A stretch of 64,000 nucleotides of DNA. It comes from Bacteroidota bacterium. Lineage in GTDB: Bacteria > Bacteroidota > Rhodothermia > Balneolales > HLUCCA01. The notes beneath the pieces were generated by a model. The model had not been told where the DNA came from. It worked only from the letters and a program-made list of their open reading frames with translations, and ran no database searches. Shown piece by piece: positions 21,090-59,103 of the stretch; position 1 is the stretch's first letter, and each line of letters starts with the position of its first letter. The translations under genes were made by a program, and so were the position numbers. The stretch is taken from NCBI GenBank assembly GCA_020832235.1, contig JAFIEZ010000008.1, positions 1-64,000 on the forward strand, given 5' to 3'.

Positions 21090-22145
21090 TTACGTCACGT
21101 TTTTATAATGGTTTTCGAAAGCAGGGGTGAGCTGTGTTGAACTTTCACGGACGGTGAGAGATACGGGCACAAGGCTCATATAGCCCGAGTGGGTATAATC
21201 GCTTTTATTGTTCAATCTATCCATAATCATTTCGAGTGCTTTTCTTCCGAGTAATTCATACGGAGTGTGAACAGAGGTTATACTGGGGGTATACATTCCG
21301 CAAGTCCGCAGGTCGTCGAAGCCGGCCAATGCCACATCGTCCGGGATGTGAACGCCATCCCGAATTGCGCTATGAGTAAAGCCGATCGCAGTATCGTCGT
21401 TGCTGCAAAATATCGCTTCGGGCTTAATCACACTATTTTTGAAGTTTTCGTAGGCCTCTTTTCCTTGGATTGTAGAGTAATCGCCGCCGAAATCCCAAAC
21501 CAACTCCATCATTCCTGATGCCTGCACATAGTCGATGAAGCCGTTTTTACGCAGCATAGCTTCCGATCTTGAAGCCGGACCTTGAATTATGCCTATCTTT
21601 TTGTAGCCACGTTCTTCAAAGTGGCGGGCTACGAGGTGCCCTCCACGGTAATTGTCAAACGTAACGGTGTCGATAACAGGGTTCGCAATAGGGGCAATAG
21701 AAACAACCGGAAGGTCTGGCGGCAACTCATGGAGCATAGATATGTAGTCTGGCCCCTTGAAGTCAGGCATGAACAAGACCGCACCATCAAATTGTCTTCT
21801 TTTGAGATTTGCCAGTATTCGGTTAACAGAGTTGTAGCTGTGCGTAACACTGATCATGCTCATTGTAATATTTGAGCTCTCACTGGCGATGTCGAATCCC
21901 CTGAACAGGGATGCAAAAAACTCACCAGTAAAGTGATGTGTTACTAAAGCAATGTTGAGACCATCTCTCAATTCAATTGGAGTATGCATGGTCGCAAGCG
22001 GATAATTCAGGCGCTGGGCACTTTCGTACACTTTTTTGAGATTCTCTTTACTGATTTTGCCGCTATGTGTCAATGCTCTGGAAACCGTAGATATAGAAAG
22101 ACCTGAGTCTTTCGCAATATCTTTCATTGTTACTTTTTTGATCAT
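21090..22145 (-). CDS. LacI-family transcriptional regulator of the glucan cluster
   Basis: About 351 residues from the ATG at 22145 (MIKKVTMKDIAKDSGLSISTVSRALTHSGKISKENLKKV), the standard LacI helix-turn-helix; an ATG at 22175 adds ten extra residues. Residues about 60-340 form the periplasmic-binding-like sugar-sensing core, including TVTFDNYRGGHLVARHFEERGYKKIGIIQGP. It is transcribed away from the glucan genes across a 420-base region that holds a perfect LacI-family operator at 22501-22516. It probably represses the cluster until a beta-1,3-gluco-oligosaccharide or glucose binds; the inducer is inferred from the neighbours. Confidence 0.85.
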   Translation of the reverse strand: MIKKVTMKDIAKDSGLSISTVSRALTHSGKISKENLKKVYESAQRLNYPLATMHTPIELRDGLNIALVTHHFTGEFFASLFRGFDIASESSNITMSMISVTHSYNSVNRILANLKRRQFDGAVLFMPDFKGPDYISMLHELPPDLPVVSIAPIANPVIDTVTFDNYRGGHLVARHFEERGYKKIGIIQGPASRSEAMLRKNGFIDYVQASGMMELVWDFGGDYSTIQGKEAYENFKNSVIKPEAIFCSNDDTAIGFTHSAIRDGVHIPDDVALAGFDDLRTCGMYTPSITSVHTPYELLGRKALEMIMDRLNNKSDYTHSGYMSLVPVSLTVRESSTQLTPAFENHYKNVT

Positions 22146-22242
22146 AGTGCTGTCCTGTAAATGATAGGTCGCCAAGTGTGAGAAAATTTTTCAGTAAGCT
22201 AAGGCACTACAGGGGTACATTGCAAGTTATATTTTTACATTC

Positions 22243-22565: not shown

Positions 22566-25181
22566 ATGAAAAAAAATATACAACATGCAGTCCTCGCGCT
22601 TGCGCTTAGCTTGGGATTCATGTCTTATGTCGCGCCGGCAGTAAATGCGCAGGATGCAGACAATCTTATAATTAATGGAGATTTCGCCACTGGAAATCTG
22701 GATGGATGGACGACCTTTACCAATGGTATAACGGTCGAATTTGGTGTTCAAAACGGTGAAGCTGCTGTAACGAATATTGCTAACCCTGGTGGAGCCGTTT
22801 GGTACATTCAGCTCAATCAAGTTTTAAGTCCTGCTCAAATCGATGCTCTCGAAGTAGGACAAGCGTACAAAGTAACCTTTGATGCCCGTTCGCCGGAGGC
22901 TGGAAGACAACTTCGCATGTTTTTCGGTGAAGAACGTGGCGGATTTGCTTCACAAAATATCACGGATATTGCTTTAACAACATCAATGCAAGGCTATGAA
23001 GCTACATTTACATTAACGGCCAAGTATCCAGAAATGAAGCTCGGTTTTGAGCTGGGATTGAGCGCTGCCGATGTATTCATCGACAATGTTGTGATGGTAG
23101 CAACGGACGATGCTCCGGTAGCCGGAGGTGGACTTAATCTTCCCATTACGTTTGAAGATCCTGATCTTGACTACGGTCTAGAGGATTTCGGTGGTAACAC
23201 ATCTGAAATCGTTGAGGATCCTACCGATTCCGGTAACCGTGTTGTTCGCAGCTTGAAAACAGAAAATTCTGAGCCATGGGCTGGTACATCTGTGGGCGCT
23301 GGAAGTGGTTTCGCCACTCCAATTCCGTTTAGTCCCGGTAATACAACTATGAGCGTTCGCGTTTGGTCGCCCAAGGCAGACATTCCTGTTCGACTCAAAG
23401 TTGAAAATGTTAATGATAATACCATGTCTGTGGAAACAGAAGTGCGTACAACAGTTGCCGAAGCTTGGGAAACACTGGTTTTCGACTTCGCAGTACAAGC
23501 TGCGGGTACAGAGCCGATAAATTTTGGTAGTACCTATAATATGGCTTCCATGTTTTTCAATTTTGGCACCCCGGGCGACGGTTCCGTTTACTTCTGGGAT
23601 GACCTCGAGTTCGGTGGAGAAGGTTCTGCTACAGGTCCTGCTGCTCCGGTCGGATTTGATGTAAATAACGCTCCTGCAGCCGTTCCTATGGAGCCAGGCG
23701 ATATCTTTCTCTCCGTAGGTCCTAATAATGTAGGTCAGGGTGGTATCGTCTACCGCTTATTCTACGCGCTCGCAGCCGATAATGTAGCCGATCCAATAAC
23801 CGGCGCCACCCAGTATACATTCGGTAGTACAGCTGGTGATGGTAATGGAACGGGTGCATTTGGATTCGTACTTGGTGGACTACAACCTGGTGCAGAATAT
23901 ACATTCTGGTTATTCCAATACAATACGACTACCGAAGAGTACTCTGCGCCTGCAGTTGTTACCCGAAGCACTGTAGGTGAAGGTAATGGCGACGATAACG
24001 GCAACGGCAACGGCGGCGATAACGGTGATACCAACACACTGAATCTTCCGGTTACCTTTGAAGACGTTGACAGAGACTATGGGTTTGATGATTTCGGTGA
24101 CGGAACTACTACAGACATCGTTGTAGATCCTACCGACTCGAACAACAGAGTTGCACGTACGGTTAAAGACGGTGGTGAGCCATGGTCTGGTACCACACTT
24201 GGACATCCTGCTGGATTTGCAACGGCTATTCCATTCGATCAAAATAACACAACCATGAGTGTGCGTGTTTGGTCTCCAAATGCTGATATCCCTGTGCGTC
24301 TCAAAGTTGAAAATTCAAATGATCCTACCGTAAGTGTAGAAGCGGAAGTTCGAACTACCGTAGCTGCTCAGTGGGAAACACTTGTATTCGACTTTACGAA
24401 TCAGGCTCCTGGAACAGCTCCAATTAATTTTGCCAGCCGTTATAACAAAGCATCTATATTCTTTGATTTTAACACCGTTGGAACCGGAGAAACCTATTAC
24501 TGGGATGATATGATTTTCGGTGGAGAGGCCGTTGTTACGGCGCCGGGTACACCGCTCGGATTTGAAGCTAGTTCTTCCATCGGTGGTGATCCGGTAGGTT
24601 CAGGTGAAATATTCCTCGTAGCAGGTCCTAACAACACCGATCAGGCGAACATTTCATACCGTCTGTTCTACGCGAAGACTGCCGACGCACTTGAAGATCC
24701 TCTTCAGGGTACACAGCACGTCTTTGGTACCATCGCCGGCGACGGTGAAGGCAACGGGCCATTCGGATTCGTACTAGGCGGACTTGAAGCAGGTACGGAG
24801 TATAACTTCTGGTTATTCCAGTACAACAGTGCAACCGATCTGTATTCTGAGCCTGCTCTGGCCGTAGCCGTAACAGGCGGGGAGTCAACCAACCTCGAAG
24901 ATGGTGCTAACGTACCTGCCGAGTACTCCTTGAGTCAAAACTTCCCTAACCCGTTCAACCCGACTACCCGAATTCAATTCGAGCTGCCGGAAAGCGGACA
25001 GGTTAAACTGGAAGTATTCAATATGATGGGTCAACGTGTTGCCACTTTGGTGAACGAAACCCGCTCAGCCGGATCCCATTCGGTAACTTTTGATGCAAGT
25101 GCACTCTCCAGTGGAATGTACCTGTACCGACTCCAGGCCGGTAATACCGTCCTGATGAATAAAATGACGTTGCTCAAGTAA
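22566..25181 (+). CDS. Secreted modular carbohydrate-binding protein with C-terminal sorting tail
   Basis: The 871-residue product has a signal peptide ending near residue 28. Residues about 33-180 resemble a CBM4/9-like domain (NLIINGDFATGNLDGW). Two copies of a longer beta-sandwich follow (about 191-352 and 493-655); each has TFED, AIPF or PIPF, RLKVEN, ETLVFDF and YFWDD or YYWDD signatures, and each is followed by a fibronectin-III-like domain. An Asn/Gly linker joins the halves. The last 90 residues, with NFPNPFNPTTRI and MGQRVATL, form a sorting tail like those of the type IX pathway. No catalytic residues are visible, so it probably binds glucan at or outside the cell surface. It is the first gene after the operator. 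Confidence 0.75.
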   Translation: MKKNIQHAVLALALSLGFMSYVAPAVNAQDADNLIINGDFATGNLDGWTTFTNGITVEFGVQNGEAAVTNIANPGGAVWYIQLNQVLSPAQIDALEVGQAYKVTFDARSPEAGRQLRMFFGEERGGFASQNITDIALTTSMQGYEATFTLTAKYPEMKLGFELGLSAADVFIDNVVMVATDDAPVAGGGLNLPITFEDPDLDYGLEDFGGNTSEIVEDPTDSGNRVVRSLKTENSEPWAGTSVGAGSGFATPIPFSPGNTTMSVRVWSPKADIPVRLKVENVNDNTMSVETEVRTTVAEAWETLVFDFAVQAAGTEPINFGSTYNMASMFFNFGTPGDGSVYFWDDLEFGGEGSATGPAAPVGFDVNNAPAAVPMEPGDIFLSVGPNNVGQGGIVYRLFYALAADNVADPITGATQYTFGSTAGDGNGTGAFGFVLGGLQPGAEYTFWLFQYNTTTEEYSAPAVVTRSTVGEGNGDDNGNGNGGDNGDTNTLNLPVTFEDVDRDYGFDDFGDGTTTDIVVDPTDSNNRVARTVKDGGEPWSGTTLGHPAGFATAIPFDQNNTTMSVRVWSPNADIPVRLKVENSNDPTVSVEAEVRTTVAAQWETLVFDFTNQAPGTAPINFASRYNKASIFFDFNTVGTGETYYWDDMIFGGEAVVTAPGTPLGFEASSSIGGDPVGSGEIFLVAGPNNTDQANISYRLFYAKTADALEDPLQGTQHVFGTIAGDGEGNGPFGFVLGGLEAGTEYNFWLFQYNSATDLYSEPALAVAVTGGESTNLEDGANVPAEYSLSQNFPNPFNPTTRIQFELPESGQVKLEVFNMMGQRVATLVNETRSAGSHSVTFDASALSSGMYLYRLQAGNTVLMNKMTLLK

Positions 25182-25281: not shown

Positions 25282-28200
25282 ATGAACAGAGTGAAACGCT
25301 ATTTGACTTTACTGAGCATATTATTATGTGTATCAGTAGCAGTATCAGCCCAAACCAACCGCGTATGGGTTGAAGAAAATGAGGATGGATGGCGACTGCT
25401 AGTTGACGGTCAGCCATTGATGGTTAACGGTATGAACTGGGATTATTTCCCAATCGGTACCAACTACGAATACGACTTCTGGGGACAACCCGATCGCTTT
25501 ATCCAGAATGCCCTCAACTATGAAATGGGGCTGCTTCAAAATATGGGCGTAAACGCCATTCGTGTTTACACCGGTATTACCCCAAGATGGGTTGAATATA
25601 TTTACGACAATTTCGGTATCTACACCATGCTTAACCACTCGTTTGGTCGCTATGGTGTTATGCTTAACGACGGTTGGATGGCTAACACCGAGTATTCCGA
25701 TCCTCGTGTTCAGGAACTCCTCCTGCGTGAAGTAACCGAAATGGTTGAAGAGTTTCGCGGTACCCGCGGACTTTTGCTTTATCTGCTCGGTAACGAGAAT
25801 AACTACGGACTTTTCTGGGGCGGTGCCGAAACGGAGGATATTCCTGTTGTTGACCGCACCTCTACGGTACGTGCACGTGCCATGTATCAGCTTTTCAATG
25901 AGGCAGCCCTGGCTATGAAAGATGTAGATCAGAATCGCCCGATAGCCATGGCTAATGGTGACCTCCTGTTCATGGACCTGGTCGTACAGTACATGCCCGA
26001 TATGGATATTTTCGGTGCAAACGTATATCGTGGCGAAACTTTTACCGATCTCTACGATCGTGTTGCTGCTGAATATGGCAAACCTGTACTGCTTACCGAG
26101 TTTGGCTCAGATGCATTTAACGCACGAACCAATCAGGAAGACCAGCTCATGCAGGCCCACTTCAAGCATCTTAACTGGCTTGACATCTATCAAAATGCAG
26201 CTGGTTTAGGTCGCGCAAACAATTCTATCGGTGGATTTACTTTCCAATGGAGTGACGGTTGGTGGAAGCTTGGTCAGACAGAAGACCTCGATGTTCATAA
26301 CACAGGCGCTTCATGGGCGAATGGCGGTTATTGGTGGGACTATCAAGAGGGCGAAAATAATATGAACGAGGAGTGGTTTGGTATTATGGCTAAGGGCCAG
26401 ACCAACGCAGCTGGTCATTTCGAGCTTTTCCCGCGTGCAGCCTACTATGTTTTGCAGCGAGCTCATCAACTTGATGTGTATGCACCAGGAACTACTCTGG
26501 AAACAATTGCCGAGTATTTCAGTCATATTAATCTGATGGATGCTGTACTTCAAGCTCGTGGCGATCGCGCCGCATTACAGGTAGAGCGCCTTTCAGGTAT
26601 CCGTCTGAGTCGATTTACTGCTGATTTTATGACCTTTAATACCGGCGGTGATAAAATTACCACACCGAATGCAGCCGATCCAAACACCCGCCAGTTCCCG
26701 AATGAACAGGGCTTTGATCACATGCAGTCGTTCTATATCGGAGTTGAGGCAGAGCCAGCACCAAATATGCGTGCTGAAGTACAATTCAACGTATTGGCGA
26801 ACGTAGCCCAGAACCCGATTGATGAGATTTTCTATGAAAATCGCGGTCGACAACTTGAGGTTCTTACTCCCGAAGGCATCGCTATGCTTCAGGATGTGAA
26901 TCGCCTGAAGGTGTACAATGCCAGTTATAGCTGGAACCACCGGATGTTTGATCTTACCGGTTTCTACCGAACGGGCCGCTACCACTGGGGGTATGAAGGT
27001 GACTTCTTTGGTCTGTATCCTGAAGCTAATTACGGTGACCAGATAGATATCTATAACGGCATAGCGCCGTTCGGATTCGAAGCCGCAGGCCGTCGTCAAT
27101 TTGATGGGCTTAAATTTGCTTTCGGTCCACAGCTTTGGTGGGGAGCCAACCCTGCATTTCTCGTGAAGTACCGCTACCGTCCCGGTCAGTGGGATATGGC
27201 CGCTATCTATCATGAAGATGTGGCAAAGCAAGGTCAGGCCGAAAGCTCCTTTGCTATTCCACAACCTAAAACCCGTCGTGTAACGTTTGCCGCAGGTCGC
27301 GATTTCGGTCCTCTCGGTGTTGAAGCCGGTGTAATTTGGGCTGGTCAGCCACTAAATGGTCGCGAATTCCAACTCTACCGTGAAAACAGTGATGGAAGCA
27401 GCAGTGTTTTTGTAGATGAAATCAAACCGGAAGATAACTGGGGTGGTAAAATCAAACTTACTGTTCAGCAAGGTAATTTTAACTGGTATGCACAGTCTGC
27501 GGTTATGGGCCTTGTTGCCAACGGTGGATTTGATCAAACCATGACATTCACCGGATGGCACCTGAAAGACAGCGGAAGCGGTAACCAGTATAATTTCCTT
27601 ACCGGTTTTGCCTACCAGCTGGGCAATTTTCAGATTGCTCCAAACTTCCTGTGGCAACAGCCAATTGAAGGTCCAATACCAACCGACGCCGGTGGTGCAT
27701 CACGACCAAGAAATATCCTGGATGATCCATTTGTGGTTCGAGCCAACAGAGAAATGGTTGCCGGTGAGCTCTTAATTACATTCGATCCCACTCCGGCTAC
27801 ATACATGTTCGACTGGAATAACGATTACCGCGAAGACGCTCCGTTTGCAGCTAGCGTAGGTTTCATTTATCGTCACCTGCCAACTACACAAGATGCTGCT
27901 ATCGGTATTCTTCCCGACGGTCGTACCACATTCGCCTTCCCTGGTGCGCCTCCTGCAAAAGATCTCTGGGAAGTACATGCACGCATCGTTTCGCGTCTGA
28001 GTCCGGATCTGGGTATGATAGCCCGTCTATATGGTGGCGATGCCCAGGCGAACGGCAGTGATGATCGGACCGTAAGCCGCTATGGTGGCGACCTCCGACT
28101 GATATATCGAAATATCATGTTGAATACATTTGCAAGAGTAAATGACTGGGGCCCCTACGATTATCACCGCGATTTTAACCTTACCTTCCCGCTTCAGCTC

Positions 28201-28425
28201 ATGGCCGATGTGTCTATGTCGCTTGGCGAACAAGATTGGTTCAATATGCCCCGCACCCGAATTGGTGTACGAGGTACATACCGTACACTCGATCAGTTTT
28301 CACCACGTTACGCTCCGGCTTTCATGACGGACCCAAGTGGCGCAACTGTACCTAACCCTACCGCCCCCGGTTTCGGGAACGGCAATGAGTGGGAGTTTAG
28401 AACCTACATTCAGATTAACATATAA
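25282..28425 (+). CDS. Clan GH-A glycosidase fused to a C-terminal outer-membrane beta-barrel-like domain
   Basis: The 1047-residue product has a signal peptide ending at VSAQ (residue 24). Residues about 28-390 form a TIM barrel of clan GH-A: GVNAIRVYTG near 90, the acid/base Glu172 in LGNEN and the nucleophile Glu273 in LLTEFGSDAF. The start of the domain resembles GH2 TIM barrels and GH72 glucanosyltransferases, but I do not fix a family. From about 400 to the end the sequence is a long series of alternating, aromatic-rich strands (LTGFYRTGRYHW, GLKFAFGPQLWWGA, FLVKYRYRPGQW) finishing in WEFRTYIQINI, the look of an outer-membrane barrel. Two domains in one chain would place a glycosidase on a pore or anchor at the surface. 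It shares a direction and short spacing (12 bases) with the next gene. Confidence 0.7.
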   Translation: MNRVKRYLTLLSILLCVSVAVSAQTNRVWVEENEDGWRLLVDGQPLMVNGMNWDYFPIGTNYEYDFWGQPDRFIQNALNYEMGLLQNMGVNAIRVYTGITPRWVEYIYDNFGIYTMLNHSFGRYGVMLNDGWMANTEYSDPRVQELLLREVTEMVEEFRGTRGLLLYLLGNENNYGLFWGGAETEDIPVVDRTSTVRARAMYQLFNEAALAMKDVDQNRPIAMANGDLLFMDLVVQYMPDMDIFGANVYRGETFTDLYDRVAAEYGKPVLLTEFGSDAFNARTNQEDQLMQAHFKHLNWLDIYQNAAGLGRANNSIGGFTFQWSDGWWKLGQTEDLDVHNTGASWANGGYWWDYQEGENNMNEEWFGIMAKGQTNAAGHFELFPRAAYYVLQRAHQLDVYAPGTTLETIAEYFSHINLMDAVLQARGDRAALQVERLSGIRLSRFTADFMTFNTGGDKITTPNAADPNTRQFPNEQGFDHMQSFYIGVEAEPAPNMRAEVQFNVLANVAQNPIDEIFYENRGRQLEVLTPEGIAMLQDVNRLKVYNASYSWNHRMFDLTGFYRTGRYHWGYEGDFFGLYPEANYGDQIDIYNGIAPFGFEAAGRRQFDGLKFAFGPQLWWGANPAFLVKYRYRPGQWDMAAIYHEDVAKQGQAESSFAIPQPKTRRVTFAAGRDFGPLGVEAGVIWAGQPLNGREFQLYRENSDGSSSVFVDEIKPEDNWGGKIKLTVQQGNFNWYAQSAVMGLVANGGFDQTMTFTGWHLKDSGSGNQYNFLTGFAYQLGNFQIAPNFLWQQPIEGPIPTDAGGASRPRNILDDPFVVRANREMVAGELLITFDPTPATYMFDWNNDYREDAPFAASVGFIYRHLPTTQDAAIGILPDGRTTFAFPGAPPAKDLWEVHARIVSRLSPDLGMIARLYGGDAQANGSDDRTVSRYGGDLRLIYRNIMLNTFARVNDWGPYDYHRDFNLTFPLQLMADVSMSLGEQDWFNMPRTRIGVRGTYRTLDQFSPRYAPAFMTDPSGATVPNPTAPGFGNGNEWEFRTYIQINI

Positions 28426-28437
28426 GGAACTAAACGA

Positions 28438-29877
28438 ATGTTTATTAGCATGAAGAATTTAGTCTTAAACAATATGAAATACGCACTAGTAATGAGCCTT
28501 CTGCTGATTGTCAGCATCACGGCCTGTGAACGAGCGGTAGATGGACTCGCGGAGCCTGAGCTTACCTCAAATCCTGAAGTCTTTATCGATAGCTTTAGTC
28601 CGGGACTCGAATATTACCCGTACGAGGGCTCTCTTATGAATGCATTTACCGTAGATACCGACGTATTCTTCGGGAATCGCGGTGCATCAATGCGTTTTGA
28701 CGTACCTAATGTTGGTGACCCGATGGGCGCATTCGCTGGAGCTATCTTCAGAGATGACTTTGGAGGCAGAAACCTGACTTCCTACAATGCCCTTACCTTC
28801 TATGCCAAAGGCACAAGAGGCGGAACCATAAACGATATCGGTTTCGGTCAGGATTTCCTGGGGAATCAATTCGAAGTTACCCGTCAGAATATGAGGCTTA
28901 CCACCAACTGGCGTAAGTACACCATTCCAATTCCCGACCCTTCATTGCTAACTGCCAGCCAGGGTCTCTTCTGGTATGCCGAAGGTCCTGAGGATGGCGA
29001 GGGCTATACTTTCTGGATTGACGAGTTGAGATACGAGTTTATCGAGAATATGGCACAGCCTCGTCCTGCTATTTTCAATGGGGAAGAAGTTACACAAACA
29101 TCTTTTGTTGGTTCGGGGCCGCAGGTAACAGGGTTAGCCTATACCATCAATCAGGCTGACGGTATCGATGTTACTGTACGACCTGCTCCTGCATATTTCA
29201 CGTTCAGCAGCTCCAATCCATCAGTAGCGACCGTTGACGAGACAGGGCGCGTGAACGTTTTGGCTGCTGGAAATGCAGATATTACGGCATCATTGGCAGG
29301 TATACCAGCCACCGGTAAGTTAACGGTGGAGTCAATGGGTGAGTTTACCTTTGCGCCCACCCCTACCCGAAATCCAGCCAATGTTATCTCCATCTTCAGT
29401 GATGTATATGAAAACGTACCGGTTGATTTCTACAACGGATTCTACGAGCCGTTCCAGACAACAACATCGAACGACTTCGAGATTAATGGTGATAATATTC
29501 TTGCTTATGAGAACTTCAACTTTGTTGGGATCGAGTTCAGACAGAATGTGCCCACCATTGACGGAACCAACATGACGCACCTTACTATGGACGTCTTCCT
29601 TCCTAACCCTGTTCCGCCCGGTTCTGCTTTAAGAGCACGGATTGTGAACAATGTGGGTGCCGGAGAGAGCTCCGTAAGTGCAACTATATTCCAGAACATT
29701 GGAACAAACCGATTGGTATCCGGAGAGTGGATAACCCTCGAGGTAGACATCAGAACGCTGTCACCGCGAAATAATCTGGGTCAGATAGTATTAGATTCCG
29801 ATCAGGGGCCTGCTTTACGCGGAGCCACCATCTGGGTTGATAATATCTATCTGTACAATGCGAACGCACCAGACTAA
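28438..29877 (+). CDS. Surface glycan-binding-type lipoprotein with Ig-like (Big_2) domain
   Basis: The 479-residue product carries a lipobox (ITAC, Cys30 counted from 28438; an internal start at 28474 is also possible). Residues about 45-200 and 310-479 resemble carbohydrate-binding beta sandwiches (ALTFYAKGTRGG, YTFWIDELRYEF; THLTMDVFLP, ATIWVDNIYLYN). Between them, about 220-300, lies a bacterial Ig-like domain (FTFSSSNPSVATVDETGRVNVLAAGNADITA). It has no catalytic signature and probably captures glucan at the outer membrane, as SusE/SGBP proteins do in SusCD systems. A ribosome binding site (AAGGA) precedes it 12 bases after the fused glycosidase. Confidence 0.7.
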   Translation: MFISMKNLVLNNMKYALVMSLLLIVSITACERAVDGLAEPELTSNPEVFIDSFSPGLEYYPYEGSLMNAFTVDTDVFFGNRGASMRFDVPNVGDPMGAFAGAIFRDDFGGRNLTSYNALTFYAKGTRGGTINDIGFGQDFLGNQFEVTRQNMRLTTNWRKYTIPIPDPSLLTASQGLFWYAEGPEDGEGYTFWIDELRYEFIENMAQPRPAIFNGEEVTQTSFVGSGPQVTGLAYTINQADGIDVTVRPAPAYFTFSSSNPSVATVDETGRVNVLAAGNADITASLAGIPATGKLTVESMGEFTFAPTPTRNPANVISIFSDVYENVPVDFYNGFYEPFQTTTSNDFEINGDNILAYENFNFVGIEFRQNVPTIDGTNMTHLTMDVFLPNPVPPGSALRARIVNNVGAGESSVSATIFQNIGTNRLVSGEWITLEVDIRTLSPRNNLGQIVLDSDQGPALRGATIWVDNIYLYNANAPD

Positions 29878-29899
29878 GTACATAATTGTTTTAAAAATT

Positions 29900-30730
29900 A
29901 TGAGACAATTTGCTATGTCAATAATCGCTGTCTTTATTGCTGCATCCCTATCATGGGGATGCAGTGATGTTAATGATCCTGAAGTAAATCGTTTTCCAAA
30001 CCTGGTTTGGAGTGACGAGTTTGATGTGGAGGGAAGTGTAGATCCAAATCGATGGATATTTGATATCGGAACCGGAGCTGAAGTAGGACTGCAGGGCTGG
30101 GGAAACCAGGAATTGCAATACTACACCGACCGTCCCGAAAACGTGAAAGTAGAAGGAGGCATGCTCCATATTACTGCCCGCCGAGAGTCGTTCAGCGGCT
30201 CTAACTTTACTTCCGGTAAAATCCTCACCAGAGGCCTCTTCGAAACAACCTATGGCCGATTCGAAGCCAGTATAAAGCTTCCTTTCGGACAAGGTATATG
30301 GCCGGCATTCTGGCTGCTCGGTGATGACTCTGACGGAACGGTTATCTGGCCGCAAATCGGTGAAATAGACATCATGGAGTACCGTGGTCAGCAGCCAACC
30401 ATCATTCATGGCAGCGTGCATGGTCCGGGTTACTCCGGCGGCAATGCTGTTACCAAAACCTATCAGCTTACCAACTCCAGATTCGACACGAAATTTCATG
30501 TGTTCGCAATTGAGTGGGGACCTGATTTTATCGACTTCTTTGTAGATGATGTGCTTTACAATACGATCACACCATCGGATGTCGGCAATAACGAATGGGT
30601 ATTCAACGACAATACCTTTTACATCATTTTGAACGTCGCTGTAGGCGGGACCTTTGTAGGCTCGCCGAATAATAGTACCCCTTTTCCTCAAACCATGCTG
30701 GTCGATTACGTGAGAGTGTATTCCAAATAA
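29900..30730 (+). CDS. GH16 endo-beta-1,3-glucanase (laminarinase-type) lipoprotein
   Basis: About 276 residues from the ATG at 29900; a start at 29837 lies inside the preceding gene and would spoil the signal sequence. The lipobox SWGC (Cys21) predicts membrane attachment. The GH16 fold is clear: VWSDEFDVEGSVDPNRWIFDIGTG, NQELQYYTDR, and the catalytic GEIDIMEYRG with Glu155, Asp157 and Glu160. The extra Met in the ExDxME motif is the form found in laminarinases. WPAFWLLG and FIDFFVDDVLYNT complete the family pattern. It should cut beta-1,3-glucan internally at the cell surface or in the periplasm. Confidence 0.9.
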   Translation: MRQFAMSIIAVFIAASLSWGCSDVNDPEVNRFPNLVWSDEFDVEGSVDPNRWIFDIGTGAEVGLQGWGNQELQYYTDRPENVKVEGGMLHITARRESFSGSNFTSGKILTRGLFETTYGRFEASIKLPFGQGIWPAFWLLGDDSDGTVIWPQIGEIDIMEYRGQQPTIIHGSVHGPGYSGGNAVTKTYQLTNSRFDTKFHVFAIEWGPDFIDFFVDDVLYNTITPSDVGNNEWVFNDNTFYIILNVAVGGTFVGSPNNSTPFPQTMLVDYVRVYSK

Positions 30731-30797: not shown

Positions 30798-33700
30798 TTG
30801 TCTATCTCAACAGAACAAATTCAGAACGGTAAATGGTTTAAAATAACGAACTACCACACGATGCGTCCTTTTTTTATGAGCATCGTAAGTGATTCTAACC
30901 ATTGGATGTTTATTTCGAGTAACGGTGGACTAACCGCAGGCCGAAAAAACAATGAATATGCCTTATTCCCATATTATACCGACGATAAAATAACCGAATC
31001 AGCAGATATAACGGGCAGCAAAACTATTGTACAGGTAACATCCGGCGAACAATTAATAATCTGGGAGCCTTTTTCTGAGCGCAATGCCGACAAGTACAAA
31101 CTCACCCGTAATTTGTACAAAAGCTTTTATGGTAACAAGATCATGTTTGAGGAAGTGAACCATGATCTGGGTCTCACATACAGCTATGAATGGAACTCGA
31201 GTAACCTATACGGTTTTGTGCGTAAGTCGGAACTTCGCAATCATTCTGGTAAGGTCTGCAAGGTTAAGATATTGGATGGTATTCAGAATATTATGCCGTA
31301 TGGCGTTGACCCCGACCTTCAGACCGCGTCGTCCAATCTGGCTGATGCATACAAGCGTAGTGAACTCGCCGGCGAATCAGGTTTGGGGATCTATGCCCTG
31401 AGTGCCATTATTGTCGATAAAGCCGAGCCTAGTGAAGCTCTTAAAGCTAATGTGGTATGGTCGCTCGGTGTTGAAAACCCAAACTACTTGCTATCATCGT
31501 TACAGTTGAACGCGTTCCGCAAGGGGCAGGATGTTCAACCGGAGTATGATATTAAAGGCGAGAAAGGTGCGTATTTCACAGTCAGTGAGGTAGAGCTGGA
31601 AAATGATACCGCACGTAACTGGCAACTCGTGGCTAATGTAAATCAGCATCATGGCCAGGTTATTGCCCTGGATAAAGAAATTCGAGAGAATGTTAGTCTA
31701 TCGGAACGCATTGAAACCGACATCCAAAAAGGAACAGAAACATTAATTCAGCTCATTGCCGGAGCCGACGGACTACGTACCAGCGCCGATCCGCTTAAAG
31801 ATGCACGCCATTATTCCAACGTACTGTTCAATATCATGCGTGGTGGGACATTTGATCAGAATTATAACATCGAAAAAGGCGATCTGACCGGCTACTTGCG
31901 CAACGCAAGCAGAGAGGTATACGAGCGTAATGCCGATTTCATAGGTTCATTGCCGGAGTTACTTGATAAGAGTACGTTGTATGACCGACTTGCAGACTGT
32001 ACAGATCCGGATTTGTATCGCCTTTGCAAAGAATACCTGCCACTCAAATTCAGTCGCCGACACGGCGATCCAAGCAGACCGTGGAATAAGTTTTCTATCA
32101 ACACAAACAGTGAAATAGACGGTTCCAAAATTCTGGATTACGAGGGCAACTGGAGAGACATTTTCCAGAACTGGGAAGCACTCGTGCATTCGTATCCTGG
32201 TTTCATCGAGGGGATGATATTCAAGTTTTTAAACACATCTACCTTCGATGGATATAACCCCTACCGCGTCACCAAAGGTGGATTCGACTGGGAAACGATC
32301 GAACCCGATAATCCCTGGTCGTACATTGGCTACTGGGGAGATCATCAAATTATATACCTGCTTAAGTTTCTGGAGTTTTACCATCAGCGCGAACCCAGCG
32401 CGATGCAGAAGTTATTTAGCAGAAACATATTTGTGTACGCTAATGTACCCTACAAAATTAAGTCGTATGACCAGATCTCCAATGATCCAAAGAATACCAT
32501 AGATTTTGATGAAGATCTTGATCGGCATATACGCGATCAGGTTGCCCGAAAAGGCGCCGATGGTGCTTTATTAAAATTGACGAACGGTGGCATATACCGG
32601 GTTAACTTCTTAGAGAAAATACTGGCCACAGTACTCGCAAAAATGTCGAACTTCATCCCCGAAGGCGGTATTTGGATGAATACGCAACGACCCGAGTGGA
32701 ATGACGCCAATAATGCTCTTGTAGGCAACGGGGTTTCCATGGTTACTCTGTACTACCTGCGCCGGTTCCTGAAGTTTTTCCAAAGCGTGGTTGAAGAAAG
32801 CTCGTTTACAGATACCGAAATATCGGATGAGCTTAAGACCTTCTTTTCAAGTGTTGCATTGGTGCTCATTGACAATAAGCGTCTGTTAAATGGCGGTATG
32901 AATGATGCAGCTCGTAAACGTATTACCGACGCTCTGGGCAAAGCAGGCAGTGATTATCGCTCCGAAATTTATAAAAAAGGATTTAAGGGAGAGACGAGCG
33001 AAATCCACAAAGGCGAATTGCTCCAATTTATTGAGCAATCGCTTGAGTGGTTAGAGCATTCTATTGATGCAAACCAGCGTGAAGATGGATTGTATCACAG
33101 CTATAATATCATGACCATGATGCCGGAAGGTATTCGCATTGAGTATCTTAGCGAAATGCTGGAAGGGCAGGTAGCTGTATTGAGCTCCCATTACCTTAAT
33201 CCTGAAAGTGCAGCCAGTGTACTCAATGCGCTTCGAAACAGCGCCCTTTACAGAGCTGATCAAAACAGTTATATGCTGTATCCGAACAAGAGCTTGCCGG
33301 GATTCCTTCAAAAAAATCAGATTCCTGAAACAGCAATCGTACGTTCGCCGCTGCTTAAAAAGCTGGTAGCCGATGGTAATACAACGTTGATTATCAAAGA
33401 TGTAAATGGAGGATACCATTTTAATGGGAACTTCCGAAATGCCACCGATGTATCCAAAGCGCTGGAAGAACTTAGTAGTTCAGGCTATAAAGCACTGGTG
33501 ACGGCCGATGCCAATGTGGTTCTCGAAATTTTTGAAGAAGTGTTTAATCATAAAGCCTTCACGGGTAGATCCGGTACATTCTTTGCCTATGAAGGACTCG
33601 GATCGATATACTGGCACATGGTTTCAAAACTTTACCTTGCTGCCCATGAGGTTGCTCTTGAAGCTAAAAGAACCGATAACCCATGCGCTGAAACCCTTCT

Positions 33701-34205
33701 GAATCATTTCCATGCGATTGGCGACGGGATTGGGATTCATAAAACACCAAAGCTTTATGGTGCTTTCCCTACCGACCCATATTCCCACACACCATGGCAC
33801 AGAGGTGCTCAGCAACCCGGCATGACCGGTCAGGTGAAAGAAGACATCCTGGTAAGTATCGGCGAACTCGGTATTCAATCAAAAGGGGGTGAATTGCAAT
33901 TCAAGCCCAGATTGCTTCGTAAAGCCGAGTTCACGCAAGCGCCTACTCGTTTAGATTTTGTAAATGTGAAGCAGGAACAAGAGACGGTAGAGATACCATC
34001 CGGCGGATTGTGCTTCTCCTATGTACAAGTACCCGTTGTATACAGTATATCTGATTACGACAAAATCAAGGTAATCTACCGAAACGGAGAGGAGCAAACT
34101 GCTGATGGTCTCATTCTCGGGCCTTCTATAAGCAGAAATATATTCGATCGTACCGGTGAAATTAAGCAATTGCACGTGATGCTACGCGAAAACCACCTTA
34201 ACTAA
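30798..34205 (+). CDS. GH149-like beta-1,3-glucan phosphorylase
   Basis: The 1135-residue product has no signal peptide, so it is cytosolic. It opens WFKITNYHTMRPFFMSIVSDSNHWMFISSNGGLTAGRKN, the N-terminal beta sandwich of disaccharide-phosphorylase-type enzymes, and has the helical barrel with RPEWNDANNALVGNG; Asp636 there corresponds to the catalytic Asp in GH94 relatives. Size (about 1,100) and Gram-negative context match GH149 rather than GH94 or GH161. These enzymes split beta-1,3-gluco-oligosaccharides with phosphate into glucose 1-phosphate. The start is a TTG (30798); no in-frame ATG would keep the N-terminal strands. It lies between the GH16 and GH17 genes, 12 bases before the latter. 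Confidence 0.75.
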   Translation: MSISTEQIQNGKWFKITNYHTMRPFFMSIVSDSNHWMFISSNGGLTAGRKNNEYALFPYYTDDKITESADITGSKTIVQVTSGEQLIIWEPFSERNADKYKLTRNLYKSFYGNKIMFEEVNHDLGLTYSYEWNSSNLYGFVRKSELRNHSGKVCKVKILDGIQNIMPYGVDPDLQTASSNLADAYKRSELAGESGLGIYALSAIIVDKAEPSEALKANVVWSLGVENPNYLLSSLQLNAFRKGQDVQPEYDIKGEKGAYFTVSEVELENDTARNWQLVANVNQHHGQVIALDKEIRENVSLSERIETDIQKGTETLIQLIAGADGLRTSADPLKDARHYSNVLFNIMRGGTFDQNYNIEKGDLTGYLRNASREVYERNADFIGSLPELLDKSTLYDRLADCTDPDLYRLCKEYLPLKFSRRHGDPSRPWNKFSINTNSEIDGSKILDYEGNWRDIFQNWEALVHSYPGFIEGMIFKFLNTSTFDGYNPYRVTKGGFDWETIEPDNPWSYIGYWGDHQIIYLLKFLEFYHQREPSAMQKLFSRNIFVYANVPYKIKSYDQISNDPKNTIDFDEDLDRHIRDQVARKGADGALLKLTNGGIYRVNFLEKILATVLAKMSNFIPEGGIWMNTQRPEWNDANNALVGNGVSMVTLYYLRRFLKFFQSVVEESSFTDTEISDELKTFFSSVALVLIDNKRLLNGGMNDAARKRITDALGKAGSDYRSEIYKKGFKGETSEIHKGELLQFIEQSLEWLEHSIDANQREDGLYHSYNIMTMMPEGIRIEYLSEMLEGQVAVLSSHYLNPESAASVLNALRNSALYRADQNSYMLYPNKSLPGFLQKNQIPETAIVRSPLLKKLVADGNTTLIIKDVNGGYHFNGNFRNATDVSKALEELSSSGYKALVTADANVVLEIFEEVFNHKAFTGRSGTFFAYEGLGSIYWHMVSKLYLAAHEVALEAKRTDNPCAETLLNHFHAIGDGIGIHKTPKLYGAFPTDPYSHTPWHRGAQQPGMTGQVKEDILVSIGELGIQSKGGELQFKPRLLRKAEFTQAPTRLDFVNVKQEQETVEIPSGGLCFSYVQVPVVYSISDYDKIKVIYRNGEEQTADGLILGPSISRNIFDRTGEIKQLHVMLRENHLN

Positions 34206-34217
34206 TATCTAGCAGTT

Positions 34218-35501
34218 ATGTTTCGAAAAATAATTCCATTGATTCTTGTCCTTAGCATTATGGCATCTTGTGCACCCACACAAAAGCACGATTTCTCAGC
34301 GATTACCATAACCGCGGAGGAAATTTTAGGCAATCCGGACTATCAAGCGATTTCCTTCGGGGCGTACCGCGAGAATACGCGGGATATTCAGCCTACGATA
34401 CCTCAGCTCAAAGACGATATCCGACTGCTCCACGCTATGGGTGTAAGGGTACTGCGTACATACAACGTGTACCTGCCTGAAGCAACCAATCTGCTCAAAG
34501 CCATCAGAGAAGTTCGCGCTGAGGATCCTGAATTTGAAATGTATGTGATGCTCGGAGCCTGGATTGACGCGAAGAATGCCTGGACGGATGAACCGGAGCG
34601 CATTCGCGATGTTGATGCACCCCGAAATGCCGAGGAAATAGCGCGCTCTGTAGAACTCGCCCAGGAATTTCCTGACATTGTGAAAATCATAGCGGTAGGT
34701 AACGAAGCTATGGTGCATTGGGCGCAGGAATATTACGTTGAGCCCTCTATCATCCTCCGATGGGTTCGCCATCTTCAAGATTTAAAGCGACAAGGTGAAT
34801 TACCTGAATCGCTGTGGATTACCACATCCGATAACTTCGCCTCATGGGGAGGCGGTGGAGAAGAGTATCACAACGAAGACCTCAACGACCTTATCCGCGA
34901 AGTGGACTTTATTTCGATGCATACCTATCCGATGCACGATACCTACTATAACCCGGAATTCTGGGGGGTGCCACGCGAAGAGTATGGACTAAGTGATCGT
35001 GAAAAGGTACATGCCGCCATGATCCGTTCACGTGATTATGCCATAGCGCAGTTCGAAAGCGTAGTTGAATACATGCGTAGTCTCGGAGTAGAGAAACCTG
35101 TTCACATTGGCGAAACCGGCTGGGCAACCATCTCCAACGAGAAATATGGTCCCGACGGAATGCGCGCCATTGATGAGTACAAATCAGGTCTTTACTATCA
35201 GCATATCCGAGAGTGGTCAAACGCAAACAACATCAGTGTTTTCTATTTCGAGGCATTTGATGAGCCCTGGAAAGATGCCGGAAATCCAATGGGATCTGAA
35301 AACCATTTCGGACTCATCAACCTGCAGGCTCAGGCGAAGTTTCCAATATGGCATTATGTGGATGCCGGGGTGTTCGACGGACTTACCCGCGACGGGGTAC
35401 CGATAACCAAAACATACGGAGGCGATCTGGATTCACTGCTGCGCGATGTGCTGGTACCGCCCACCGCAGCGGAAATTCGGGCAATGCGGGAAAATGAATA
35501 G
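34218..35501 (+). CDS. GH17 beta-1,3-glucanase-type lipoprotein
   Basis: The 427-residue product has a short signal peptide with lipobox IMASC (Cys18). The GH17 barrel runs through residues about 50-395 with the proton donor Glu163 in IAVGNEAM and the nucleophile Glu299 in VHIGETGWAT; FYFEAFDEPWK near 340 is the last barrel strand. A C-terminal extension of about 40 residues (DGLTRDGVPITKTYGGDL...) follows. GH17 enzymes hydrolyse or transglycosylate beta-1,3-glucan. It resembles the 319-residue cytosolic GH17 at 39202 more than the other two copies. It begins 12 bases after the phosphorylase gene. Confidence 0.88.
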   Translation: MFRKIIPLILVLSIMASCAPTQKHDFSAITITAEEILGNPDYQAISFGAYRENTRDIQPTIPQLKDDIRLLHAMGVRVLRTYNVYLPEATNLLKAIREVRAEDPEFEMYVMLGAWIDAKNAWTDEPERIRDVDAPRNAEEIARSVELAQEFPDIVKIIAVGNEAMVHWAQEYYVEPSIILRWVRHLQDLKRQGELPESLWITTSDNFASWGGGGEEYHNEDLNDLIREVDFISMHTYPMHDTYYNPEFWGVPREEYGLSDREKVHAAMIRSRDYAIAQFESVVEYMRSLGVEKPVHIGETGWATISNEKYGPDGMRAIDEYKSGLYYQHIREWSNANNISVFYFEAFDEPWKDAGNPMGSENHFGLINLQAQAKFPIWHYVDAGVFDGLTRDGVPITKTYGGDLDSLLRDVLVPPTAAEIRAMRENE

Positions 35502-35595: not shown

Positions 35596-37998
35596 ATGTC
35601 ATCAAATAGTGTCGTTGTGGGCAAGGGCAAAGTCCCTACTACCCAAAAAGTTGCGTTTGGTCTTGGTATGCTGGCAAATCAAATGTTTCCGGCAGCGCTG
35701 GGAATATTTATGGTGGTATTGGTACAGGATTTGGGCTTTCCCGGATGGATGTGGGCTGCCATCTACTTCTTCCCAAGAATATTTGATTCTATTACCGACC
35801 CCATTATGGGGTATATCTCCGATAACACCCGGTCGGTTTGGGGACGGCGACGACCGTATGTGTTTATTGGTGCCATTATTATGGGTCTGGCATTTATTGC
35901 CATGTGGCAGTTGTATAGAGAAAGCGGGTTGGAGTACAACTTTATCTACTTCATGACCTGGTCGTTCATATTCTATTTGGGCCTTACCATATTTAGTGTG
36001 CCTTACGTGGCGATGGGCTACGAAATGAGCGACGATTTCCACGAGCGTACATCCATCATGGCTACGGCACAATGGATAGGACAATGGGCTTGGGTTATTG
36101 CGCCCTGGTTCTGGGTAATTATGTACGATCCAAATTGGTTTCCGAATGCAGATACTGCTACCCGTACGCTTGCCATTTATGTTGGGGTGGGCTGTGCCAT
36201 ACTGGCCATGATACCGGCGATATTCATCAAGAGTACATCCACTAAATACGACGAGAGTCTGGCCAAATTGAGCTTTGCAGGCATTGGCGACAGCTTGCTT
36301 CAAATTTTTAAAGGATTTAAAGAAGCGTTTCAGTCCCGACCTTTCCGCAAGCTTTGTATTTCTACCTTCTTCATTTTCAATGCGTTTAACACGGTAGCCG
36401 CATTTTCCTTTTTCATTGTAGTCTATCATTTATTTGGAGGAGATGCTCCATCAGCAGGTATCTGGCCAACATTATTCGGTAGTTTGGGCGCACTGGTAAC
36501 CACCTTTTTGGTTATCCCCATTGTCGCCTGGATGTCGAAAAAGATGGGTAAAAAACGGGCATTCTTGCTATCACAAGGGATATCTATTTTTGGCTACATC
36601 TTGCTGTGGTTTTTGTTTATACCCGGCAAACCCTACATGTTTATTTTCGCGCTTCCGTTCTTTTCATTCGGAATCGGTAGTTTATTTACGCTGATGATGT
36701 CGATGACCGCCGATGTCTGTGATCTCGACGAGCTTAACACCGGTAAACGTCGGGAAGGTATATTCGGCGCTATTTATTGGTGGATGGTTAAATTTGGTTT
36801 TGCCATTGCCGGAGGACTTAGCGGCCTCATCATATCGTACGTCGGACTGGATCCCGGTGCTATTGAGCAGCCGGAAGGAGCGGTTACAGGCTTGCGGTTA
36901 TTTTTCTCCGGTGTGCCTATAGGAGGTACCCTCATCGCGATGTTTATCATGCGAAATTATGATCTGGATGAGGCGCGGGCTCGTGAAATTCAGGCTGAAC
37001 TGGCAATGAGAAAAGCTGAAAAGCCAACAGCCTACACCAAATTGCGTCTGTTGCCCAAACTGGGTGTGGAAGGCATGTCCAAGTCCGAAATCTTGAATCA
37101 ATTTCCGCAATTTTTCCATACGCCCCTCGACATAAGCAGTATGAGTAAAAATGCCCTGCGTCGGCAGTTTAATAAACAGCTTGAGGGAGGCATACATGGA
37201 ATTTGTTTTAGTGCCTACACCGAAGGGCAAGATCCACGAGATATGATCACAGCCGATCAAATCCGACGTAGGCTTAAACTTGTGAAGCCCTACACCAAAT
37301 GGATACGAACCTTCTCGTGTACAAATGGACACGAGTTGATTCCCCAAATTGCCAGGGAGATGGGTTTGAAAACGTTTGTTGGTGCATGGATAAGCAAAGA
37401 TCCCGAACAAAATGAGCGCGAACTACAGTCGCTCATAGCTTTGGCTGGAAAAGGCGTTGCTGATATCGCCGCCGTTGGAAACGAGGTATTATACCGTGGT
37501 GATTTATCCCAACAAGCCTTGCTTGATTACATAGACCGCGCAAAACAAGCCATACCTAAAGTACCGGTAACCACCGTAGATGCGTACTTCGAATTCATTA
37601 ATAATCCTGCACTGGTTGAGGCCTGTGATGTTATACCCATCAACTGTTATCCTTTCTGGGAGGGCAGCAGCGTAGAGCACGCAGCATTGTATCTACAGGA
37701 GATGTACCGAAAAACCAAAGAAGTTGCCAAAGGGAAACGCATTATCATTGCAGAAACCGGCTGGCCAAGTAAGGGTGAGCCAATTGATGATGCGATTCCA
37801 TCTGAAGACAACTATATTCGATATTTCCTGGAGTCGCAATCATGGGCAACGCACCTGAAAGTAGATTGTTTTCATTTCTCATCTCATGATGAGTCATGGA
37901 AAATACATGCCGAGGGCTGGGCCGGTACTTCCTGGGGAATTTGGGATGTTAACGACAAGCTCAAATTCACGGCTTCAGATCCGGCAAAAAAACCATAA
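35596..37998 (+). CDS. MFS/GPH sugar transporter fused to a GH17 domain
   Basis: The 800-residue product joins two enzymes. Residues about 15-460 form a 12-helix transporter of the glycoside-pentoside-hexuronide (GPH, MelB-like) type: ARG-free start, RIFDSITDPIMGYISDNTRS and GRRRPYVFIGA are its marks. A charged, helical linker of about 70 residues (DEARAREIQAELAMRKAEK) leads to a complete GH17 barrel (about 530-790) with Glu630 in AAVGNEV and Glu720 in IIAETGWPSKGE. Twelve helices put both ends in the cytosol, so the hydrolase would meet oligosaccharide as it enters. The GH17 part is close to the free-standing enzyme at 38181. Confidence 0.85.
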   Translation: MSSNSVVVGKGKVPTTQKVAFGLGMLANQMFPAALGIFMVVLVQDLGFPGWMWAAIYFFPRIFDSITDPIMGYISDNTRSVWGRRRPYVFIGAIIMGLAFIAMWQLYRESGLEYNFIYFMTWSFIFYLGLTIFSVPYVAMGYEMSDDFHERTSIMATAQWIGQWAWVIAPWFWVIMYDPNWFPNADTATRTLAIYVGVGCAILAMIPAIFIKSTSTKYDESLAKLSFAGIGDSLLQIFKGFKEAFQSRPFRKLCISTFFIFNAFNTVAAFSFFIVVYHLFGGDAPSAGIWPTLFGSLGALVTTFLVIPIVAWMSKKMGKKRAFLLSQGISIFGYILLWFLFIPGKPYMFIFALPFFSFGIGSLFTLMMSMTADVCDLDELNTGKRREGIFGAIYWWMVKFGFAIAGGLSGLIISYVGLDPGAIEQPEGAVTGLRLFFSGVPIGGTLIAMFIMRNYDLDEARAREIQAELAMRKAEKPTAYTKLRLLPKLGVEGMSKSEILNQFPQFFHTPLDISSMSKNALRRQFNKQLEGGIHGICFSAYTEGQDPRDMITADQIRRRLKLVKPYTKWIRTFSCTNGHELIPQIAREMGLKTFVGAWISKDPEQNERELQSLIALAGKGVADIAAVGNEVLYRGDLSQQALLDYIDRAKQAIPKVPVTTVDAYFEFINNPALVEACDVIPINCYPFWEGSSVEHAALYLQEMYRKTKEVAKGKRIIIAETGWPSKGEPIDDAIPSEDNYIRYFLESQSWATHLKVDCFHFSSHDESWKIHAEGWAGTSWGIWDVNDKLKFTASDPAKKP

Positions 37999-38180: not shown

Positions 38181-39089
38181 ATGTCATTTCGTTCCGAAAA
38201 TTATTTAAACTACAAAGGTATTGAAACCCTTTCGGGTAATACGTATCTCAAAAATAAAACCGAAGAACAACGCAAAAAACTCTTCAGTGAAATTTTGGAA
38301 GAAGGCGTTCACGGATTTTGCTTCAGCCTGTACGAAGAAGGGCAAAAACCCGGTGATATTATATCTGAAGATCAAATTCGCAGACGCCTACGAATACTAA
38401 AGCCATACACATCCTGGGTTCGGTCTTTCTCCTGCACCGAGGGCAATGAATTGATACCACGGATCGCTAAGGAAATGGGTATAAAAACATTGGTTGGTGC
38501 GTGGCTTGGCAGCGATCTAGAAAAAAATAGGGAAGAGCTCGACGGATTGATTGCCTTGGCAAATGAAGGGCTTGTAGATGTTGCAGCTGTCGGTAATGAA
38601 GTATTATACCGAAAAGACCTAAGCGAAGAAGAGCTGCTGGCATATATCAATGAAATAAAAGAAGTATTGCCGGGTAGAATTCCCGTTGGCTATGTGGATG
38701 CATACTATGAGTTTGTTCAAAGACCTGCAATTTCCGATGCCTGCGACGTGATTCTGTGTAACTGCTATCCCTATTGGGAGGGAACGCCATTCGAGTACGC
38801 TTACGATCACATGAAGCATATGTATGATTTAGCTGTGCAGGCCGGCAAGGGTAAACCCGTTATGGTTACCGAAACCGGCTGGCCCAGCAAGGGTGAAGGA
38901 CTTGGCGGCGCCATGCCTTCCCACGAAAACGCCCGCGATTATTTTATCAACGCGCAGTTATGGTCGGCCAAGGATGACATCCCCATGTTCTATTTTGCAT
39001 CCTTTGACGAGGCCTGGAAGGTCGGCGCCGAAGGCGAAGTTGGAGGGTACTGGGGTATTTGGGACAGCAAAGAAAAGCTCAAATTCTGA
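38181..39089 (+). CDS. Cytosolic GH17 enzyme, paralogue of the fused domain
   Basis: The 302-residue product has no signal peptide. Its sequence runs parallel to the GH17 half of the upstream fusion: LEEGVHGFCFSLYEEGQKPGDIISEDQIRRRL versus the fusion's matching line, ending FYFASFDEAWK and YWGIWDSKEKLKF. The donor is Glu140 (AAVGNEVLYR) and the nucleophile Glu231 (MVTETGWPSKGEG). It looks like a tandem duplicate of that domain, or the source from which the fusion arose. It probably trims imported beta-1,3-gluco-oligosaccharides. Confidence 0.88.
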   Translation: MSFRSENYLNYKGIETLSGNTYLKNKTEEQRKKLFSEILEEGVHGFCFSLYEEGQKPGDIISEDQIRRRLRILKPYTSWVRSFSCTEGNELIPRIAKEMGIKTLVGAWLGSDLEKNREELDGLIALANEGLVDVAAVGNEVLYRKDLSEEELLAYINEIKEVLPGRIPVGYVDAYYEFVQRPAISDACDVILCNCYPYWEGTPFEYAYDHMKHMYDLAVQAGKGKPVMVTETGWPSKGEGLGGAMPSHENARDYFINAQLWSAKDDIPMFYFASFDEAWKVGAEGEVGGYWGIWDSKEKLKF

Positions 39090-55668: not shown

Positions 55669-55940
55669 ATTGACATTTTTTTTTACGTGAAGTGGTTATG
55701 CACCGAAACTAGCATATGTACCGCAAAAAATCGCTTTCAACAGACAATGAGTTGTAAAATTTGGTGAATCTCTTGTACTAGCCTGTAAAATTTTATTTGG
55801 TATAGCATTAAATAATAGCTATTGTTGCTGTTACGAGCAGTGTAAAATCATTGCCTTTGTGTCAATAAAGATGTAGTACTTGCCGGTTGAGCCTTAAACC
55901 GGTTGGGAATATGAGAACAATTAAACCAAAGTCATACTCT

Positions 55941-59060: not shown

Positions 59061-59103
59061 TCATCGCAACTATAGTAAATAAGGACTTGAAGAGAAATAC
59101 ATT

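Follow-up and report, generated by a model that had tools for sequence, protein, structure and literature searches.

The window analysed here (the whole stretch of 64,000 nucleotides, from a genome of the order Balneolales, phylum Bacteroidota) carries a gene whose single product joins a glycoside hydrolase to a predicted outer-membrane beta-barrel; both the fusion and the predicted barrel fold are well supported, and we regard them as highly probable. The gene sits in a known laminarin locus, in which GH16, GH17, GH30 or GH149 enzymes and an MFS transporter occur in synteny, and the barrel is strictly coupled to a lipoprotein with Ig or PKD domains. On balance, we consider it somewhat more likely than not that the fusion provides the outer-membrane component of a conserved cassette for the uptake of beta-1,3-glucan (laminarin), in which a plug-less pore is combined with a periplasmic hydrolase.

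A hydrolase and a predicted barrel in one chain

The open reading frame (25282-28425, + strand; 1047 codons) has no internal stop, and the gene is single-copy in the 3.38-Mb genome (20 contigs). The following parts can be distinguished.

25282-25350, + strand: signal peptide, read from the sequence (residues 1-23, VSA/Q, without a lipobox)
25351-26481, + strand: clan GH-A TIM-barrel glycoside hydrolase domain (residues 24-400; PF02836, profile matches to 6pal and 9oro, Foldseek)
25795-25797, + strand: codon of Glu172, the predicted acid/base, in GNEN (GNENNYG), aligned with the GNE motif of BuGH158
26098-26100, + strand: codon of Glu273, the predicted nucleophile, in TEFG, aligned with TEWG/TEFG of GH158
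26482-26592, + strand: helical linker (residues 401-437; helices in the AlphaFold2 models)
26599-28422, + strand: predicted outer-membrane beta-barrel of about 24 strands (residues 440-1047, about 610 residues; AlphaFold2, Foldseek, strand statistics)

A mechanical antisense open reading frame (26593-27264) was set aside. The sequence-only reading that preceded this work had described one chain of 1047 residues with a signal peptide, a clan GH-A TIM barrel and both catalytic glutamates (172 and 273), and this description holds: the frame is unbroken, the TIM-barrel region, which begins about 30 residues past the signal peptide, matches PF02836 (E 1.3e-6, 28.3 bits; curated cut-off 21), and N171/Glu172 and Glu273 are invariant in a 57-member alignment of homologues. 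A lipobox-like motif is present in one of 91 fusion homologues. The nearest solved relatives of the enzyme domain are GH158 endo-beta-1,3-glucanases (6pal, E 3.8e-7, and 9oro, E 2.7e-4, with a 22-member profile), these being partial and weak matches with PDB sequences as targets. The best Foldseek match of the whole fusion model is also 6pal (E 2.6e-12), and some members of the family match GH72 weakly. In BuGH158, E137 and E220 have been shown by mutation to be essential (PMC7157763). From these comparisons, the enzyme domain is a putative beta-1,3-glucanase. The helical linker is kept at the end of barrel-less relatives, described below, and is therefore probably part of the enzyme domain.

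For the C-terminal part, the same reading had claimed an outer-membrane barrel-like domain from residue 390. Structure prediction, fold search and strand statistics uphold the barrel, but move its start to about residue 440, because residues 390-437 form a helical tail. The AlphaFold2 model of this part (from residue 393, with 87 homologues; pLDDT 80.9, pTM 0.77) has two helices up to residue 435, followed by a single long meander in which about 24 extended strands continue to the C terminus. All 50 of the 50 listed Foldseek matches in the PDB are outer-membrane proteins, with BtuB-type proteins at the top, and they include TonB-dependent transporters (BtuB, FepA), MOMP, LamB maltoporin, AlgE, Occ porins, LptD and an usher; their TM-scores are low (0.20-0.34), too low to settle which type of barrel is present. 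In the alignment, strand amphipathicity exceeds that of 2000 of 2000 permutations. The model, the Foldseek matches and the strand statistics together rule out a soluble chain of beta-sandwich domains, which was the outcome that would have told against the earlier claim.

Between the strands, long gaps (mean 23 residues) alternate with short ones (mean 5 residues), the long loops are strongly conserved, and by this alternation both barrel ends lie on the side with the short turns, which is the periplasmic one. Pore-facing columns are more conserved than lipid-facing columns (0.81 versus 0.70 in the alignment); because the faces were assigned by hydrophobicity, the residue make-up of each face is partly circular, and the permutation test, the loop alternation and the difference in conservation are less so. 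The homologue of Bacteroides finegoldii (WP_022275059.1) ends in Phe, like classic outer-membrane proteins. According to these models, residues 440-1047 would insert into the outer membrane and close into a barrel.

The domain databases are silent on this half of the protein. A Pfam scan recognised no family in residues 391-1047, where matches were at chance level only, NCBIfam was likewise blank, and a profile of the barrel retrieved nothing from the PDB sequences even at an E-value of 10. The plug domain PF07715, which is matched by the SusC at 55887-59060, has no match in the fusion. RefSeq names a homologue "glycoside hydrolase family 2 TIM barrel-domain containing protein" and leaves the barrel half unnamed. 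In the full-length AlphaFold2 model both domains are predicted and their mutual placement is unsure (pTM 0.54), and for this reason the side of the enzyme was not placed from that model.

The locus, its distribution and the probable loss of the barrel

The locus in the window extends from a LacI-family regulator (21090) to two further GH17 genes (end at 40161), with the fusion among the following genes.

21090-22175, - strand: LacI-family regulator (PF00356, PF13377)
22566-25181, + strand: CBM4_9/CBM-like protein with a T9SS sorting tail, probably a secreted glucan binder (PF02018, PF18962, TIGR04183)
28438-29877, + strand: lipoprotein with a Big_2 Ig-like domain and carbohydrate-binding-like flanks, likely surface glycan-binding (PF02368; lipobox CERAVDGL)
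29837-30730, + strand: GH16 glucanase, likely a surface lipoprotein (PF00722, E 8.7e-25; true start probably near 29900)
30798-34205, + strand: cytoplasmic GH149 beta-1,3-glucan phosphorylase (NF058639, 1714.7 bits; cut-off 1150)
34218-35501, + strand: GH17 lipoprotein, likely periplasmic (weak PF00332; lipobox CAPTQKHD without an acidic signal)
35596-37998, + strand: GPH/MFS sugar transporter fused to a C-terminal GH17 (PF13347, PF00332), laid out as in Formosa FbGH17b
38181-39089 and 39202-40161: the two further GH17 genes, whose starts are not signal peptide-like
55887-60501: SusC/SusD pair (SusC at 55887-59060), about 27 kb downstream of the fusion

The protein directly upstream of the fusion contains CBM4_9 and CBM-like repeats and fn3-like parts. 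No SusC/SusD pair adjoins the window's fusion as in a classic PUL, and the pair listed last is the nearest in the window. Across loci the same gene order is repeated: fusion, Ig/PKD lipoprotein, GH16, GH149, GH17, in some cases GH30, and the GPH transporter. A Muricauda laminarin locus is of the same type and has a "GH2 beta-glycosidase" gene at the corresponding place of the fusion (PMC13188888), and syntenic or similar loci in Formosa are induced by laminarin (PMC6246565). A metagenome survey from 2023 found a highly expressed "GH0" in laminarin loci, as well as a laminarin locus of similar general type without susCD in the NS4 clade MAG W_MB115 (PMC10108472). The "GH0" of that survey may be the enzyme of the fusion, with or without the barrel.

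Counting homologues with the same two-part layout, as had been proposed, revealed a conserved and common family and not a one-off. A pattern-based scan of GTDB contigs gave 576 related loci, and among the best 80 of these 576, which were compared, nearly all align over the whole query, with identities of about 60-88%. Homologues of full length (about 1040-1090 residues, 55-91% identity) occur throughout the Bacteroidota, and the fusion is therefore not due to chance. In one Bacteroidota sample a match was found in 38 of 297 genomes, the gene being missing from most, and among Flavobacteriaceae in 74 of 351 genomes, nearly all with frames of about 1040-1090 residues. Two full-length fusions come from records under other names, Thermoanaerobaculia of the Acidobacteriota (L100) and Calditrichia (L103); the former clusters with Saprospiraceae and may be mis-binned. 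In the human gut species Bacteroides finegoldii (L233, 11867-22903 of NZ_OY725931.1), the fusion is accompanied by an Ig-type lipoprotein, GH16, a fimbrillin-like protein and GH3, and this cassette is not flanked by SusCD. This record is labelled a plasmid, and the presence of valS and rpsA nearby suggests a mislabelled chromosomal piece.

A barrel without the enzyme was not found with the barrel profile in 395 genomes; the sole weak match (G127:C26) proved to be an Omp85/POTRA protein. Barrel-less enzymes do exist, in frames of about 430-480 residues (52-74% identity) that stop once the helical linker is complete. On the enzyme tree, seven switches between the fused and unfused states are required, five of which are forced by well-supported branches, and since the unfused forms are nested among the fused ones, the barrel has most likely been lost repeatedly. 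One genome (G418) has both forms, fused (L182) and unfused (L168), at separate loci with different neighbours. Several fusions are broken by stops or truncated (L167, L159, L179, L181, L037 and L096), and look like copies that are decaying or were shortened recently, unless they are errors of assembly; L159 retains a barrel remnant of about 100 residues, and L179 and L181 are barrel-less loci that look degenerate.

The presence of the barrel and the neighbouring gene go together. The Ig/PKD lipoprotein adjoins the enzyme gene in all 82 fused loci with at least 1.5 kb of downstream sequence and in none of 18 barrel-less loci. In a second sample, from Flavobacteriaceae, it is adjacent in 38 of 38 fused loci, and the 82-locus and 38-locus samples may overlap by a few species. 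Judged from the tree and the neighbourhoods, there were most likely five or more separate losses of the barrel, none of which left the lipoprotein beside the enzyme.

A possible uptake route and its rivals

Acidic-type export signals reportedly mark the surface lipoproteins of Bacteroidota. At least two acidic residues at positions +2 to +6 are found in 46 of 58 orthologues of the Ig/PKD lipoprotein and 37 of 51 of GH16, versus two of 35 of GH17, and in the barrel-less enzymes the signal peptide is either plain or followed by a lipobox that is in most cases non-acidic. These signals, taken together with the barrel topology, favour a periplasmic over a surface enzyme, and the hydrolase more probably lies on the periplasmic side.

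On this basis, a route can be proposed in which the C-terminal half, lacking a TonB plug, would open an outer-membrane pore with about 24 strands. On the outside, glucan would be bound by the Ig/PKD lipoprotein, itself docked at or close to the long conserved loops, and broken into fragments by the lipoprotein GH16. Once through the pore, the fragments would encounter the attached GH158-like hydrolase at the periplasmic mouth, which would shorten them and keep them from diffusing back; from there they would go on to GH17 in the periplasm, to the GPH transporter of the inner membrane and, finally, to the GH149 phosphorylase in the cytoplasm. That the barrel functions as a pore at all seems to us somewhat more plausible than otherwise, and a pore as large as the predicted barrel would leak unless it were occluded by loops or by the enzyme. 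We suggest more tentatively that such proteins could be a distinct class of importer, in which the barrel is plug-less and TonB-independent, cutting by the periplasmic hydrolase gives transport its direction, and the surface lipoprotein replaces SusD.

The barrel might instead be a secretion device and anchor, as in autotransporters, displaying the hydrolase on the surface where it would work with GH16 and the lipoprotein. The order of the domains, with the enzyme N-terminal and the barrel C-terminal, is indeed that of type V secretion, a helical segment precedes the first strand, and the barrel co-occurs with surface-type lipoproteins. However, about 24 strands are predicted and not 12-16, none of 22 family members matches an autotransporter or Omp85 domain of Pfam, and the helical segment is retained by barrel-less enzymes and so looks like a part of the enzyme. 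The signals of these barrel-less enzymes suggest periplasmic work, and it is the pore-facing residues that form the conserved face. We therefore regard surface display as unlikely.

Still more doubtful, in our judgement, is a non-conducting barrel that merely fixes the hydrolase at the outer membrane beside a separate importer, such as SusCD. SusC/SusD genes were found near the fusion in four of 63 loci of the first sample and in 12 of 38 of the Flavobacteriaceae sample, just upstream in some, as an anchor beside an importer would have it; these genes were sought by BLAST with few references, and some may have been missed. In the majority of fused loci, however, no SusCD lies within 8 kb, and SusD-like_3 has no match anywhere in four fusion-bearing genomes. 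In addition, a lipid tail, which some barrel-less forms possess, would be a far cheaper anchor, and the pore-facing residues and long loops are strongly conserved. Barrel-less loci, too, are often without a nearby SusCD, and six have one or both genes adjoining the enzyme (L151, L154, L178, L180, L196 and L200).

The coexistence of SusCD and the fusion in some Flavobacteriaceae also means that the barrel is not simply a substitute for SusC, and a simple replacement of SusCD is ruled out as a general rule. The sequence-only reading had proposed that the enzyme is held by its own barrel or feeds sugar into it. The feeding part fits the locus, with its surface-type lipoprotein, its GH16 and, mostly, no SusC/SusD close by, but it has to be adjusted, because SusCD does adjoin in a minority of loci and the enzyme is more probably periplasmic. 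Export, in which the fusion would help to release or trim a self-made beta-glucan, has in its favour the exopolysaccharide export barrel AlgE among the fold matches and is very improbable, since the genes of the locus are catabolic (GH16, GH149 phosphorylase, GH17, GH30, GPH importer), no glucan synthase was found beside the fusion, and the syntenic Formosa loci are induced by laminarin.

If the uptake cassette proposed here is correct, the fusion may be an unrecognised mode of uptake for laminarin, an algal sugar that ranks among the most abundant in the ocean. Laminarin is among the largest marine carbon flows, and SusC/SusD are credited with bringing it into Bacteroidota. Were the barrel another way in, surveys that tally SusCD pairs in genomes would overlook importers, and a part of the "GH2" and "GH0" labels in marine and gut data would conceal a membrane protein. 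The cassette also occurs in a human gut Bacteroides, and the repeated natural losses of the barrel provide a ready-made comparison set.

Relationship to known systems

With GH158 (BuGH158, 6pal; GH158(Pro), 9oro), the fusion shares the clan GH-A TIM barrel, the NE (N136/E137) and E (E220) motifs and the beta-1,3-glucan context, whereas BuGH158 has a C-terminal Ig-like domain that shapes the cleft and the fusion has a predicted membrane barrel in its place. The match to PF02836 recalls GH2, but it is the sole Pfam match, and the usual N-terminal sugar-binding and Ig-like beta-sandwich domains of GH2 are unmatched. Like SusC and other TonB-dependent transporters, the fusion has a large predicted barrel of the outer-membrane type and is encoded in a glycan locus alongside surface lipoproteins; it differs in having neither a plug nor a carboxypeptidase-like leader, in needing no SusD, in placing an enzyme before the barrel, and in its approximately 24 strands instead of 22. 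The idea of a plug-less sugar pore is shared with LamB maltoporin and the substrate-specific porins, which have 16-18 strands and carry no enzyme.

In the searchable literature (subscription papers lay outside this scope), no glycosidase-barrel fusion is described, in agreement with the earlier impression that this layout was new, and one paper of 2026 apparently lists the gene merely as a "GH2 beta-glycosidase". Functional N-terminal domains ahead of outer-membrane barrels are known from the type Vd patatin-barrel and CBM9-DUF5916 proteins, in which the domain is unrelated and the barrel families are different. FbGH17b of Formosa (MFS-GH17) likewise unites a transporter and a hydrolase in one chain, and in the same kind of locus, but in the inner membrane and from other families. 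In other words, the locus type and the inner-membrane MFS-GH17 fusion have already been published, and the outer-membrane fusion is a component of a known glycan system whose membrane half had gone unrecognised.
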